A stretch of 64,000 bases of DNA from positions 1,860,001 through 1,924,000 of the forward strand of contig NZ_CP104558.1 of NCBI RefSeq assembly GCF_025398035.1, in the 5' to 3' direction. Every line of letters begins with the position of its first letter. Within the stretch, counting starts at the first letter, position 1. Source of the stretch: Rossellomorea vietnamensis. Lineage in GTDB: Bacteria > Bacillota > Bacilli > Bacillales > Bacillaceae_B. Below, piece after piece: positions 4,236 through 57,070 of this stretch. The position numbers and the translations under genes are program-made. The notes beneath the pieces were generated by a model. The model was not told where the DNA came from. It ran no database searches and saw only the letters and a program-made list of their open reading frames with translations.

Positions 4236-4508
4236 TTATCCGTCTCTTAATAGGATATTCAATAGAAACGAGCAAACCAACCCAGACACCGCTGCCACCA
4301 GCCCGTTCAATCCGATTGCAGTTAAGCTTAAACCACCCCATCCGCCCACAGCCAGACTAATAATCCAGCAGAGGGAAGATAGTAGGATCACCCCAAAGAA
4401 TAACTTCACATTATAAAAAGAAGGGATCCTACCGTACCTCTGTAAAGCCTGTAAAACACACGCAGCAACAGCCCCGATGACGACCAACGACATCACGTCA
4501 ATGAACAT
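4236..4508 (-). CDS. Small membrane protein, unknown function
   Basis: A 90-residue protein with three hydrophobic segments (about 2-22, 34-55 and 60-85). The start follows GGGGAGG with normal spacing. It lies 16 nt after the leftward AAC(3)-like gene and reads the same way, so it is probably in that transcript. Function unknown. Confidence 0.65.
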   Translation of the reverse strand: MFIDVMSLVVIGAVAACVLQALQRYGRIPSFYNVKLFFGVILLSSLCWIISLAVGGWGGLSLTAIGLNGLVAAVSGLVCSFLLNILLRDG

Positions 4509-4524
4509 ATCGAATGCCTCCCCG

Positions 4525-5316
4525 TCAGTTTCTGTTTTTATCCATCCATCCTACAGCGTAGTCCACCATCTGTCGCATCGGCATGAAGTAGCTCCTCGCT
4601 TCCCCCACCAGACCCTCTTTTACAGAAGATGTTTCTTTATGAAACTCCTCAAACAATCGGTCAAAATCATCGGATTCATTGTTGATATCACGATATGTCG
4701 TCCAGACTTCTTTCTCTCCTTTTTTCACTTTGACATCCCATATTTTTTCTTTCACAAAGGTGTTGTCTTGCCTGTATTCAGCAAGGTGCAATGAGGTATT
4801 TGAATTCGTCGGGGCACCAAGGAGAAGGATGTAGCCCCCCAGCTCATACATCCTTCCTAATGGGGATTGTTCATTCATGGAAAAGTCGAGACCATGTTCC
4901 TGCGTGATGCGGGCAGCGTCTTTCCCCCAGGCAGCGAATGATGTGTGGGGGTGCGGGCTCCGTTTCACCCCATCCTGTTTTCTGAATGTCTCCGGAATGA
5001 ACCCCATATAAGAGGTCGGAGTTAAATCGGGATGAAAGGTCGGCATGTTTTCCCGGATGAGTTCCAGTTCCTCATCTGAATAACCGCTTCCATATTCCGT
5101 CGGGTCGCAAAGATGCTCGGTTTGGGTCGGCATGACGATGTTCCCTACTGTACCGACTGCCTCTTCCAGTGCCAGGATCACGGAAACCGGTCCGCCTATG
5201 ACTCTGCCGATTGATTTTAAGGAGGAGTGGACGATGACGGTCATTCCTTTTGTAACGCCCATCCTCTTTAAATCTTGTACCATATGATCTTTGGTGACGA
5301 GACTTCCTTTTTTCAT
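4525..5316 (-). CDS. AAC(3)-family N-acetyltransferase (YokD-like)
   Basis: A 263-residue protein of the antibiotic N-acetyltransferase family. It shows the family blocks VHSSLKSIG (residues 29-37), IVMPTQTEHLCDP, RSPHPHTSFAAWG (His-containing active-site segment near 120), SPLGRMYELGGYILLLGA and NTSLHLAEY. The family transfers acetyl from acetyl-CoA to the 3-amino group of 2-deoxystreptamine drugs, but YokD-like members in Bacillus often lack a proven drug target. Its start overlaps the preceding 61-residue gene by 4 nt (ATGA), giving translational coupling. Confidence 0.88.
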   Translation of the reverse strand: MKKGSLVTKDHMVQDLKRMGVTKGMTVIVHSSLKSIGRVIGGPVSVILALEEAVGTVGNIVMPTQTEHLCDPTEYGSGYSDEELELIRENMPTFHPDLTPTSYMGFIPETFRKQDGVKRSPHPHTSFAAWGKDAARITQEHGLDFSMNEQSPLGRMYELGGYILLLGAPTNSNTSLHLAEYRQDNTFVKEKIWDVKVKKGEKEVWTTYRDINNESDDFDRLFEEFHKETSSVKEGLVGEARSYFMPMRQMVDYAVGWMDKNRN

Positions 5317-39858: not shown

Positions 39859-40572
39859 ATGGACGAAGTTTTAATCGCTGTCGTAAGAACGTTGATCAGT
39901 TTTCTTTTATTGGTCATTGTCACGTTAGCTATTGGTAAACATATCAATTCACACAAAAATCATTACAGTTTTGCCTTGTCGATCACGGTCGGTTCCTGCA
40001 TTGCCAATATGGGATTTGATACGAACATTGATTTTTTGAATATCTTCATTTCTTTTATCGTGCTGGTCATATTATTTTATCTATTTCTGATACTTTCTTC
40101 GAAAAACCGGCTATTCAGACGATGGTTATCCGGACGTCCCACGATCCTGATGGAAAAGGGTAAAATTTTGGATGAGAATATGAAAAAACTAAAGTTCACG
40201 ATGGATGACTTGAATCAGCACCTCCGGGAACTTGGCGTGTTTGATATAAACGAAGTGGAATATGCCCTGTTGGAAGTGAGCGGGGTCCTGTCCGTCAAAA
40301 AGAAAAACCGTTTTCTGCCACTTGCAAAGGCTGACATGAATATGGACCCTGGCCCTTCTGCTTCCATTCCCATTGAACTGATAATGGAGGGCAAGGTCAT
40401 TTCAAAAAACCTGTCTCCTCCCTACACATTACAATGGCTGGAGAGCGAAGCGAACAAGAGAGGGATCACATTACATGACATCTATTATGCCGTGATCAAC
40501 AGCAACGGCACCCTGTTCATCGACCTTTTTAAAGATCATCTCCCAGGCGACAGTGAACGTATGGACAGATAA
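39859..40572 (+). CDS. DUF421 (YetF-like) membrane protein 2
   Basis: A 237-residue protein with three N-terminal TM helices and a YetF-type cytoplasmic domain: SGRPTILMEKGKILDENMKK, MDDLNQHLRELGVFDINEVEY and ALLEVSGVLSVKKKNRFLPL. It is longer than the paralogue at 35019, with an extra C-terminal segment of about 65 residues ending in LHDIYYAVINSNGTLFIDLF. AAGGAGATTTCCT lies before the ATG. A sigma-K-type promoter for the next gene begins inside its last codons. Confidence 0.85.
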   Translation: MDEVLIAVVRTLISFLLLVIVTLAIGKHINSHKNHYSFALSITVGSCIANMGFDTNIDFLNIFISFIVLVILFYLFLILSSKNRLFRRWLSGRPTILMEKGKILDENMKKLKFTMDDLNQHLRELGVFDINEVEYALLEVSGVLSVKKKNRFLPLAKADMNMDPGPSASIPIELIMEGKVISKNLSPPYTLQWLESEANKRGITLHDIYYAVINSNGTLFIDLFKDHLPGDSERMDR

Positions 40573-40584
40573 AGGCATATAGTA
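40557..40584 (+). promoter_or_regulatory. Putative sigma-K promoter (copy A)
   Basis: AC (40557-40558), 17-nt spacer, CATATAGTA (40576-40584), matching the sigma-K pattern AC-N16/17-CATAnnnTA. The flanks GAACGTATGG and AGTATC are also shared with the promoter at 54808, beyond the consensus. Confidence 0.68.
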
Positions 40585-40626
40585 TCTCAACGTCCGAATA
40601 GACCAATGAAATGGGAGAGTGACCGT

Positions 40627-40827
40627 ATGTTCCAGCACCGAACACCGGGGAATCATGTTGTTTATCCACATGACCCCAGGTGCCATCCTTACTGCAGACA
40701 ATATACAGGAGGGTATGATACCCATGTGCACATGATCGAAGCACACTATTCCCAATTGAATCGAAAAGTGCAGCGACTGCTTGAAAGGGTCGAGCGTATT
40801 GAAAGATATCTTGGGATTAAGCCGTAG
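40627..40827 (+). CDS. Small Tyr/His/Cys coiled-coil protein, likely spore coat (paralogue A)
   Basis: A 66-residue protein with an N-terminal Pro/His/Tyr-rich part (VVYPHDPRCHPYCRQYTGG), then a helix with heptads (YSQLNRKVQRLLERVERIERYLGI). It shares the pattern RQYxGGxxTxxxxxxxxYxxLxRxVxxLxxRxExxExxLGI with the protein at 56466, which belongs to a GerP-like cluster. GGGAGAGTG lies before the ATG at 40627 and a sigma-K-type promoter lies upstream. Role inferred as late mother-cell, coat-associated. Confidence 0.72.
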   Translation: MFQHRTPGNHVVYPHDPRCHPYCRQYTGGYDTHVHMIEAHYSQLNRKVQRLLERVERIERYLGIKP

Positions 40828-53527: not shown

Positions 53528-53624
53528 ACCATGTTTCTCTTTCATTCATATACTCATTCAAAAACTCTATGGGATTAGGGTTTATTAAAATTGGCGTTTT
53601 TCATCAAAGTGGATGGAGGATTTT

Positions 53625-54779: not shown

Positions 54780-54807
54780 CCGTTTACGCCCACGCATAAA
54801 TTCATGA

Positions 54808-54835
54808 ACGTATGGGCTGACGAACGCATATAGTA
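54808..54835 (+). promoter_or_regulatory. Putative sigma-K promoter (copy B)
   Basis: AC (54808-54809), 17-nt spacer, CATATAGTA (54827-54835). Same consensus, spacer length and flanking bases as the promoter at 40557. It lies 27 nt before the GTG of the GerPF-like gene. Confidence 0.7.
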
Positions 54836-54862
54836 TCCCAAAGACAAAAGAGGTGGGAAACT

Positions 54863-55186
54863 GTGCAGACTGTAGTAAACCTATACTGTATGAAGGTAAA
54901 TAGCGTCTCGGGCAATGGTTCGATCACCATTGGAGAAGCCGTTCATAACAGTCATACGTCGAATAATAAGTCCCAGGGAATCAACTCTTCCTATGGTGAT
55001 ACGTCCCCTACAGAATCAATGATGGAAAATGTATATATCGATCCAGATGTGAACGATCAATCCGATTTAGGCAATGCGGATTCAGTCAATGCGGGAGCAC
55101 CTTTGCCGGTTCCTGTTCCTGTACCCGTAGACCCAAGAGAAACCGAAGAGGAGGATCCTCATGCCGTATCAGATCAACATATTTAA
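54863..55186 (+). CDS. GerPF-family spore germination protein (long form)
   Basis: A 107-residue protein of the GerPA/GerPF family: VNLYCMKVNSVSGNGSITIG, then HNSHTSNNKSQG and SYGDTSPTESMM, VYIDPDVNDQSD. The C-terminal 30 residues are a PVPVPVPVDP stretch plus an acidic tail that normal GerPF lacks. GTG start after AGAGGTGGG. GerP proteins sit in the coat and let germinants through. Overlaps the next gene by 26 nt. Confidence 0.85.
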   Translation: MQTVVNLYCMKVNSVSGNGSITIGEAVHNSHTSNNKSQGINSSYGDTSPTESMMENVYIDPDVNDQSDLGNADSVNAGAPLPVPVPVPVDPRETEEEDPHAVSDQHI

Positions 55187-55403
55187 TATCAAAGTCAATG
55201 GCGTGACGCAGAACGGGAACGTCGATATCGGGCCGACCGTTCACAACAGTCATACCGCCAATGCGAAATTATTCGGAGCCAACTTTTCATTCGGTGATTT
55301 CTCGCCTACCGGCTCACAGATGAATACAGGGGTACTCGATCCGGACGTCAGCGATCAAGACCAAATCGCCAACCCGGCCATCCCGTATACTGTTCAAGTT
55401 TAG
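55161..55403 (+). CDS. GerPA/GerPF-family spore germination protein
   Basis: An 80-residue paralogue: INIFNIKVNGVTQNGNVDIG, VHNSHTANAKLFGANFSFGD and VLDPDVSDQDQI. AGAGGAGG lies inside the preceding gene. This locus has two GerPA/PF-type genes but not the complete gerPABCDEF order, so it is a satellite of the main gerP operon rather than that operon. Confidence 0.87.
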   Translation: MPYQINIFNIKVNGVTQNGNVDIGPTVHNSHTANAKLFGANFSFGDFSPTGSQMNTGVLDPDVSDQDQIANPAIPYTVQV

Positions 55404-55428: not shown

Positions 55429-55863
55429 ATGGATATGGAAAAAATGAAAAAATGGCTGGAACTCACCAACCAATACAAAAGCGATAATTTCTGGAACAGC
55501 GTATTCGAAAACAATAACCCTTCCCAGTTCTTTTCTACAGATGACGAATTCCCCCGTTATGATGTGTATCAGAACGAATCCCATGTGTGCATCATCCTGG
55601 ATGCTCCGGGGATCACCCAAGATGATATTAAGTTTTCATTGAATTCCAATACAAACCTTCTGATAAAAGGGATGATCAGACCCGTATATCCGATAGAAAT
55701 GGAAGTCAAGGCAGAGCGGTTCAGAGGGGAATTCGAACGAACAATTCCCCTCCCGGAACCGGCCGAAGCGAAATCCATCAACATCCAGTTTCTCAATGGC
55801 CTCATCCAAGTGGCCTACCCCCGGAAAATAGAAGACGTTTCATTACACGGAGGCTCACAATGA
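55429..55863 (+). CDS. Hsp20/alpha-crystallin-like protein (CotM/CotP-like)
   Basis: A 144-residue protein with a degenerate alpha-crystallin domain (residues about 50-135): YQNESHVCIILDAPGITQDD, SLNSNTNLLIKGMI, ERTIPLPEPAEAKSI and LNGLIQVAYPRK. AGAGGTGATAAT precedes the ATG. By context a coat-associated small heat-shock-like protein, comparable to CotM in B. subtilis. Confidence 0.82.
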   Translation: MDMEKMKKWLELTNQYKSDNFWNSVFENNNPSQFFSTDDEFPRYDVYQNESHVCIILDAPGITQDDIKFSLNSNTNLLIKGMIRPVYPIEMEVKAERFRGEFERTIPLPEPAEAKSINIQFLNGLIQVAYPRKIEDVSLHGGSQ

Positions 55864-55889: not shown

Positions 55890-56309
55890 ATGTTGTATAC
55901 TTACTTTCAGAAAAAACTAACTTCATACATTCAAAAAAGCATGAATGCTGAGCAAAGTGAGATGAAAGACAAGATCCAGGCCCTTGAAAAGGAAATCCAA
56001 TCCTTGAAACAGGGCTTAGCTTCAGACGTCAAAGACACGCTCTCCAGCCAGCAGGAACCTGCAAAAATTGTGATTGAGCACTTATCCATTGAAAATGTAA
56101 ACATCGATCACGCTGACCTTAGTAACAACTTCGGAAATCTCGGCATTAAAGACCTGAAGGGACAATTATACATCGGAACCACATATGACAAGCTTAAACC
56201 CCCTGCCAGCATAGAAAAAGAATTATCATCACCTTCCCTTGCCAACCAGATGCCGGCACCCACCCATCACTCTCCCAAAATTAAAGTCACAACAAGAAAA
56301 CGTTCGTAG
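55890..56309 (+). CDS. GerPC-like spore protein
   Basis: A 139-residue protein. N-terminal coiled coil (EMKDKIQALEKEIQSLKQGL), then IVIEHLSIENVNIDHADL and LGIKDLKGQLYIGTTYDKL. These resemble the central and C-terminal region of GerPC (IEKIEYKFDQLKxExLxGTLNIG). The Pro- and basic-rich end (SPKIKVTTRKRS) is hydrophilic. The ribosome site is weak (GTGAGA). Fourth gene of the sigma-K cluster; identity as GerPC-like is by eye. Confidence 0.7.
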   Translation: MLYTYFQKKLTSYIQKSMNAEQSEMKDKIQALEKEIQSLKQGLASDVKDTLSSQQEPAKIVIEHLSIENVNIDHADLSNNFGNLGIKDLKGQLYIGTTYDKLKPPASIEKELSSPSLANQMPAPTHHSPKIKVTTRKRS

Positions 56310-56318
56310 AGACAACCG

Positions 56319-56437
56319 GGAAGCACGGGGACGGTTCTTCTGCTTCCGTTTTCGCGATTTTGAGAAGCGGGGGGACGGTTCTTCTGCTTCCATGGTCACG
56401 ATTATAGGAGCATGAGAACCGTCCCCGTGCTTCCCTT
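56319..56437. repeat. REP-like element, GGGGACGGTTCT family (copy 1)
   Basis: GGAAGCACGGGGACGGTTCT and a second direct copy (GGGGGGACGGTTCTTCTGC) face one inverted copy (GAGAACCGTCCCCGTGCTTC). The interior TCACGATTATAGGAGCAT is shared with the element at 56658-56728. Confidence 0.82.
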
Positions 56438-56465
56438 TTCTATTCTGTTAATGGAGGTGACGATT

Positions 56466-56657
56466 ATGGTTTATTACAGAGGAAATCATCAAGCACCATA
56501 TGCCAATCCCTTAAACTGCTATATCCGACAATATCCTGGAGGGTTTGAAACTCAGTTAGATATTCTCAGGAAACAATATGCCATGCTGGATAGGAGGGTA
56601 TACGCATTGTCCCAGAGGCTTGAACAAGTTGAAAAACAACTGGGGATTATTCGCTAG
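56466..56657 (+). CDS. Small Tyr/Cys coiled-coil protein, likely spore coat (paralogue B)
   Basis: A 63-residue protein: VYYRGNHQAPYANPLNCYI, then RQYPGGFETQLDILRKQYAM, LDRRVYALSQRLEQVEKQLG. It aligns with the 66-residue protein at 40627 across RQYxGGxxT and the heptad region ending in LGI. GGAGGTGACGATT precedes the ATG at 56466. It lies between two copies of a REP-like element, at the end of the GerP-like cluster. Confidence 0.72.
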   Translation: MVYYRGNHQAPYANPLNCYIRQYPGGFETQLDILRKQYAMLDRRVYALSQRLEQVEKQLGIIR

Positions 56658-56728
56658 GAAGCGCGGGGACGGTTCTTCTGCTTCCATTGTCACGATTATA
56701 GGAGCATGAGAACCGTCCCCATGCTCCC
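56658..56728. repeat. REP-like element, GGGGACGGTTCT family (copy 2)
   Basis: GGAAGCGCGGGGACGGTTCT at the left end and GAGAACCGTCCCCATGCTCC at the right end, with the same interior as 56319-56437. It begins right at the stop codon of paralogue B and ends just before the broken gene at 56731. Confidence 0.82.
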
Positions 56729-56730
56729 CT

Positions 56731-57070
56731 CTAATACTCTTCCACAACCGATTCCCCTTCGCTTTGTTCACGGTCCATCCACTTCCATTTTTCATGTAGT
56801 CTTATCCGACCATCCTTCAGTATTTCAGGCACAGAGGTGCATTGACCTCCCCTGATTTCATGATTCACGTTCACATGGTTATATCTGAACACTAAGCTGC
56901 CATCGTCATTCACGATGCCAATCAGGGTCCCTTTCGTAATATCTCCCCCCACTATACGCAGCTGAAAGGATCTGCCCTTCTTGCTTATACTTAAACACGG
57001 TCTTTGAGGACACCTCCCCGTTTGCTGTATTTTCAATGGATACGAATGTACGCCCGTCATAATTGATCAT
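56731..57070 (-). pseudogene. Frameshifted N-acetylglutamate-synthase-like / DUF gene
   Basis: From the ATG at 57070 (after AAGGAGGAG) the frame reads MINYDGRTFVSIENTANGEV and SSKTVFKYKQEGQILSAAYS, then shifts at a run of six G (plus-strand C run near 56945-56950). One base fewer restores SGGDITKGTLIGIVNDDGSL, then GQCTSVPEILKDGRIRLHEKWKW to the stop at 56731. The intact form is a common Bacillus protein of about 113 residues, often labelled n-acetylglutamate synthase without proof. The extra G is either a real frameshift or a sequencing error. Confidence 0.82.

Follow-up and report, generated by a model that had tools for sequence, protein, structure and literature searches.

The locus and its genes

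The window analysed here is a stretch of 64,000 nucleotides (bases 1860001-1924000) from the one-contig genome (4.52 Mb) of Rossellomorea vietnamensis, and it contains two sites, 14 kb apart, at which a gene for a small protein of what we call the RQY family lies downstream of a sigma-K-type promoter (Table 1). At the first site the promoter Pa overlaps the end of a DUF421 gene and precedes RQYa, and at the second the promoter Pb precedes an operon of four genes, beyond which lies RQYb. Records with the same locus come from R. vietnamensis, R. aquimaris, Rossellomorea sp. and three strains labelled Bacillus.

Table 1. Features of the two sites, in coordinates of the window
Feature	Position	Strand	Remarks
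DUF421 (YetF/YdfS-type) membrane protein gene	39859..40572	+	Pfam PF04239, E 2.1e-31; 3' end overlaps Pa
Pa, sigma-K-type promoter	40555..40586	+	-35 GAACG 40555-40559; -10 GCATATAGTA 40575-40584
RQYa, 66-aa protein	40627..40827	+	low-confidence N-terminus, RQYTGG, predicted C-terminal helix 30-61
Pb, sigma-K-type promoter	54806..54837	+	GerE-box-like GTATGGGC at 54810-54817
gerPF1, gerPA/gerPF-family protein (YdgA/YdgB-like)	54863..55186	+	PF10676, E 5e-17
gerPF2, gerPA/gerPF-family protein	55161..55403	+	PF10676, E 1.9e-22
Small heat shock protein (Hsp20; CotP-like by context)	55429..55863	+	PF00011, E 1.5e-9
GerPC-like coiled-coil protein (resemblance only)	55890..56309	+	conserved gene order; weak profile match
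Nested inverted repeats, then T-rich tract; probable terminator	56318..56446	+	between operon and RQYb
RQYb, 63-aa paralogue of RQYa	56466..56657	+	between two 83-nt direct repeats (56364-56446, 56658-56740)

The start codon of RQYa is preceded by GGGAGAG, and an earlier in-frame ATG at 40606 reads ATT in the relative G032, which supports the start at 40627. Among five orthologues, compared in 10 pairs, dN/dS is 0.14-0.55, a sign of purifying selection on the gene. Neither RQYa nor RQYb matched a Pfam or NCBIfam family over the cut-off. From an alignment of eight sequences AlphaFold2 predicts for RQYa a single helix (mean pLDDT 73, pTM 0.44), in which successive blocks from residue 31 on score pLDDT 85, 97, 97 and 88, and the hydrophobic residues 34, 37, 41, 44, 48, 51, 55, 58 and 62 follow the 3-4 spacing of a coiled coil.

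A preliminary description of this DNA had called the 66-residue protein a paralogue of the last gene in the cluster at 54.8 kb, and the paralogy is borne out by BLASTP, as 22 of 57 aligned residues are identical in RQYa and RQYb (39%, E 6e-14); the level of identity and the simple type of the helix count against the explanation favoured below. No third copy was detected in the genome at E<=0.01, the next best matches having E 0.06 and 0.19. An unrooted tree of nine proteins places RQYa apart from RQYb (100/98), with the RQYb of this genome flagged as a long row and the protein of G021 placed between the groups; the latter is regarded as RQYa because of its gene order. The alignment leaves out the YRQQ proteins described below, the short PRQYS proteins found in G002 and G009, and an RQYb pseudogene in G026, which has one TAG and a match over 27 residues.

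That RQYb is the last gene of the cluster holds for its position, but it is not clearly part of the operon, for the segment 56300-56470, which separates the two, folds into a very stable hairpin (-89.3 kcal/mol, z -9.6), so that the phrase can be taken in a positional sense only. This hairpin is absent from the list of a simple terminator scan, probably because of the loop limit of the scan. Repeats of GGGGACGGTTCT at 56319-56446 and 56657-56740 make nested hairpins on either side of RQYb, and the gene would be excised cleanly if the 83-nt direct copies recombined.

The operon at 54.8 kb

The preliminary description had spoken of a GerP-like locus. The content in gerPA/gerPF-family genes agrees with this, but the operon is not gerP itself, as the true gerPA and gerPF of the genome lie at 1325797-1327773 behind a different promoter. 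Instead of the six cistrons gerPA to gerPF it comprises two genes of the gerPA/gerPF family followed by one for an Hsp20 and one for a GerPC-like protein, and no other gerP family was matched in Pfam by its four proteins. The GerPC-like protein did not match the Pfam GerPC family, and a profile comparison with the GerPC of this genome gave a weak match (E 0.0039, probability 8.5%). The set resembles the gerPABCDEF operon in its gerPA/gerPF-family proteins, its GerPC-like protein and its sigma-K-type promoter, but differs in lying elsewhere in the genome with a promoter of its own. The order gerPF1-gerPF2-Hsp20-GerPC-like is kept in the loci L127, L129, L130 and L140. GerP proteins are reported in a passage of PMC11841064 to reside in the inner coat. 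The true gerP promoter ACCTATTCATGTTCTTAACATAGAATA (L120, 1438-1464) resembles CATTCATGTTTCTATTCTTAACATAGGCTA, found before YRQQ genes of sister species, and these may be a second promoter pair.

An Hsp20 gene beside two gerPA/gerPF-family genes is also the composition of a cluster of the CotP/YdgA/YdgB type. In Bacillus subtilis ydfS, cotP (ydfT) and ydgA-ydgB are neighbours, and both species bring together a DUF421 protein, a coat protein of the Hsp20 type and a pair of gerPA/gerPF-like proteins. In G018 the DUF421 gene is directly adjacent to the operon; in the present genome it is 14 kb off. The B. subtilis genes ydgA and ydgB appear to form one operon, according to a passage of PMC11925247, and our literature search found no paper that treats cotP together with ydgA or ydgB. 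The present loci differ from the B. subtilis arrangement in the additional GerPC-like and RQY genes and in gene order, and the promoter of B. subtilis ydfS is reported, in a passage of PMC10126465, to be recognized by sigma-G, unlike the sigma-K-type Pa and Pb.

The twin promoters

Pa (GAACGTATGGACAGATAAAGGCATATAGTATC) and Pb (GAACGTATGGGCTGACGAACGCATATAGTATC) are identical at 27 of 32 positions and at 19 of the 24 positions outside the eight of the consensus, which upholds the earlier claim that the two promoters are alike beyond the sigma-K consensus; the associated P of about 5e-8 assumes independent positions and refers to a 32-nt frame picked after the match was seen. The motif common to both, GAACGTATGG-N11-CATATAGTATC (21 bases), has only these two sites in the entire genome at <=3 mismatches (reversed-pattern control, 0) and, at the same tolerance, no further site in the window (mean 0.00 in 100 shuffles). 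It is this extra identity that counts. The bare box AC-N17-CATAnnnTA, though confined to Pa and Pb within the window, is weak evidence by itself, since 0.80 sites are expected on average and at least two occurred in 19 of 100 shuffles; AC-N16-CATAnnnTA has no site in the window. The spacer of 17 nt given in the preliminary description runs from AC to CATA, so that GTATGG falls inside it. Position 6 of the motif is T in both Pa and Pb, and A in the remaining promoters of RQYa genes and of Rossellomorea operons, which may reflect a parallel change or gene conversion.

The layout of Pa and Pb, with a C at position 4 of the -35 element, a gap of about 15 nt and a CATAnnnTA -10 element, is that of the B. 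subtilis sigma-K regulon as described in part of Eichenberger 2004 (PMC517825), where a 5-nt -35 element with C at position 4, a gap of about 15 nt and a 10-nt -10 element are given; the promoters studied here differ from it in a conserved TGGGC within the gap. The same source states that the -10 element is common to sigma-E and sigma-K, and the C of the -35 element is the single feature from which we infer transcription by sigma-K rather than sigma-E.

Distribution of the RQY family

In its strict form (RQYxGG...LGI) the family was found only in Rossellomorea, at seven loci of the named-genome scan, under the labels Rossellomorea or Bacillus sp. The comparison of spore formers with non-spore formers that had been envisaged for it is nearly empty because of this confinement to one genus. 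In the order and class samples the best profile match outside the genus (E 5e-9) covers the helix only, and a match in G233 extends over residues 2-63 (E 6e-5) and is without RQYxGG. The same profile also meets a looser YRQQ/coiled-coil set. Among 299 genomes of the order 47 have a match at E<=0.001, eight of them of this genus, and in a sample of 398 genomes of the class there are eight, two of them outside the order.

These small, Gly/Pro-rich YRQQ proteins, for which no family name was found, share with RQYa a YRQ near the N-terminus and a helical-looking C-terminus, but the 22 that were read are without RQYxGG. It is mostly the helix that links them to RQYa, and common descent is uncertain. 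Of the 22 YRQQ loci 13 have a CATAnnnTA box at a distance of 25-49 nt upstream of the presumed start, as against 43 of 1360 background windows in a 100-nt search; five of the 13 come from one genus and are therefore not independent. The 22 loci are those fetched outside the genus, where 39 genomes had a match; L085 and L088, with doubtful starts, were scored as misses, and the matches L077 and L084 are without an ATG before the motif. The excess of boxes suggests that the wider YRQQ set may also be under sporulation control. A third, short type of protein, PRQYS followed by a coiled coil, occurs in G002 and G009 (L113, 4429-4581, minus strand; L112, about 4427-4606), with CCCATACT-type boxes upstream of the genes.

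Gene orders across the genus

A slightly degenerate motif, written from the pair in the window and four RQYa orthologues, has 12 sites at <=2 mismatches in 36 genomes of the genus (reversed-pattern control, 2). Six lie before RQYa (G000, G019, G021, G029, G031, G032; assigned by gene order) and four before the operon (G000, G002, G018, G026; defined by an Hsp20 at least 80% identical). As letters of the motif were drawn from known sites, the independent finds are the RQYa site of G021 and the operon sites of G002, G018 and G026. The two remaining sites (G010, G017) have no relative of the operon or of RQYa nearby at E<=0.01, and are taken as chance matches because their number equals that of the control; near the one in G017 are a piece of a kinase gene, a stretch of 28 residues that resembles RQYb (E 0.01) and one of 21 residues that matches the ORF at 53613 (E 0.002). 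A more distant operon is present in G016 (Hsp20 45% identical).

The arrangements around these promoters are diverse. G018 has the order HK - DUF421 - promoter - gerPF1 - gerPF2 - Hsp20 - GerPC-like, and G021 has DUF421 - promoter - RQYa. DUF421 is full length in G029 (L061) and G032 (L062), has been lost by internal deletions in G019, and is reduced to its last 32 codons in G031 (L060, R. vietnamensis NBRC 101237), with promoter and RQYa persisting in both of the latter. In G026 (strain NTK074B) the operon lies behind LprI. The stop of LprI is separated from the promoter by 154 nt, which contain a decayed end of DUF421. Its local DNA score is 48 when compared with G021 and 34 with G018, its protein score in one frame is 61, and none of 2000 shuffles equalled any of these values; the remnant is not reported by tblastn at E<=0.001 and rests on this shuffle test. 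RQYb lies behind LprI without the operon in G005 and G027. In G018 and G002 the surroundings of the operon yielded no RQY gene.

The TGGGC element

Operon promoters of other GTDB families mostly keep AAC-N3-TGGGC. Among five loci outside the genus found by gene homology it precedes gerPF1 in three (L129, L133, L140), and the other two, both of one genus (L127, L130), have TGAGC instead; the final TA of the -10 element is absent in L133 and L140. The promoter of the distant G016 operon has TGGGC with a gap one base shorter, and L128, with Hsp20 and GerPC-like genes and without gerPF, showed no TGGGC promoter in the stretch examined. The exact pattern AAC-N3-TGGGC-N9-CATAnnnTA has 26 sites in 24 of 397 genomes of the order (control, 6): eight before a gerPF operon (four genera, with three sites in this genus), ten before a protein of about 157 residues of an FPWN type, grouped by eye from translations, and eight unassigned. 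The FPWN-type loci are L164-L167, L169-L173 and L179, and the proteins scanned had no Pfam match over the cut-off. That they are Hsp20 proteins was considered and left unproven (best PF00011 match E 0.08 in one of three proteins; profile comparison probability 0.4%).

The element TGGGC agrees with the GerE consensus RWWTRGGYnnYY, a consensus that our literature search did not return. The core RWWTRGGY fits nine of 14 operon promoters (nine of a first 12, to which G016 and G220 were added) and one of six RQYa promoters, the operon promoters without a fit being those of G016, G072, G195, G198 and G220; four of the 14 had been found by the TGGGC pattern, so the count is biased. GerE represses cotP and cotM, according to a passage in a review (PMC11841064). 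Tentatively, we propose a GerE-dependent shut-off of the operon, from which RQYa would have escaped in most species. The TGGGC in the spacer would be a repressor site, most likely bound by GerE, that the operon has preserved and that has eroded in front of most RQYa genes, so that RQYa should stay on longer. A more far-reaching version would have the TGGGC sigma-K promoters constitute a distinct, conserved late-mother-cell switch (on by sigma-K, off by GerE or another regulator) that serves at least two unrelated transcription units in the order, with RQYa inheriting it through break-up of the operon, losing the off-site and so becoming a coat building block of prolonged expression; this is possible, and we regard it as doubtful rather than probable.

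Function and origin of RQYa

Taken as a whole, the explanation that we favour, and consider fairly likely, is that RQYa is a sporulation gene, transcribed late in the mother cell from a sigma-K promoter, and the remnant of a broken-up operon locus, with function and regulation to match. A sporulation role is likely in view of a promoter common by descent and of a partner operon with gerPA/gerPF-family, Hsp20 and GerPC-like proteins. Since RQYa would have retained the late-sporulation switch of the cluster, the probable role of its product is that of a small building block in the outer layers of the spore, presumably in the coat. Both RQYa and RQYb may be small structural proteins of these layers, in which the 32-residue helix, with its regular hydrophobic spacing, could self-associate or dock on the GerP-like, small heat shock and GerPC-like proteins. 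A short helical protein of no known family might also be imagined to serve sporulation outside the coat, for instance as a regulator in the mother cell or an adaptor at the forespore surface, but the families in the partner operon are of the spore-layer type and the middles of the looser YRQQ set, rich in Gly, Pro and Tyr, look structural, and we hold such a role to be unlikely.

The comparisons establish, at the level of sequence, that the two RQY proteins are paralogues and the two promoters homologous, that alternative gene orders exist, and that NTK074B carries a DUF421 scar, and the common descent of Pa and Pb is supported by them. The simplest history would start from a single block, DUF421 - promoter - gerPF1 - gerPF2 - small heat shock protein - GerPC-like - RQY, that was copied or moved and then underwent complementary losses. 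By copying or movement, the segment from the 3' end of DUF421 onward would have reached the LprI/YitT region, which in this genome lies 14 kb off, and the old site would have lost its four inner genes, bringing the promoter directly before RQYa, although the order of these events may have been another. The whole block was seen in no genome, and the history is therefore one that we infer. Duplication or movement of the DUF421-promoter-operon segment would account for the likeness of Pa and Pb, so that no special argument from co-regulation is needed.

The two promoters might instead have arisen independently and converged on sigma-K and the same second regulator. The pattern with TGGGC does precede the unrelated FPWN-type protein at 10 of its 26 sites (nine of the ten in one genus), as convergence would allow. 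However, the homology goes past the motif, for the operon promoter of G018 and the RQYa promoter of G021 both follow the tail of DUF421 and have similar DNA on either side, with TTTACAAAGAGT before the motif in both and TCTCACAGA (G021) and TCCCATAGA (G018) after it. Moreover, the spacer bases match at six of 11 positions in this genome and at eight of 11 between the operon of G026 and the RQYa of G032. Convergence is thus quite improbable. It is most improbable that RQYa is a read-through passenger of DUF421 with a fortuitous box kept as coding sequence, a reading suggested by the -35 element and most of the spacer, which lie here in the last codons and stop of the DUF421 gene, but opposed by a -10 element outside that ORF, by promoters downstream of the DUF421 stop in G021 and G018, by survival of the box where DUF421 is deleted, and by the forespore expression reported for B. 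subtilis DUF421 genes in a passage of PMC10126465. According to passages of PMC11841064 and PMC10126465, the YdfS/YetF proteins of this family are forespore-expressed and are believed to lie in the spore inner membrane.

On the favoured explanation, descent from a broken-up operon locus, the small and unnamed RQY family would gain a testable place in the building of the spore, and the genomes of Rossellomorea would preserve a record of a spore operon falling apart while its promoter survives. The findings also point to a possible sub-class of promoters, in which sigma-K recognition is combined with a TGGGC element.
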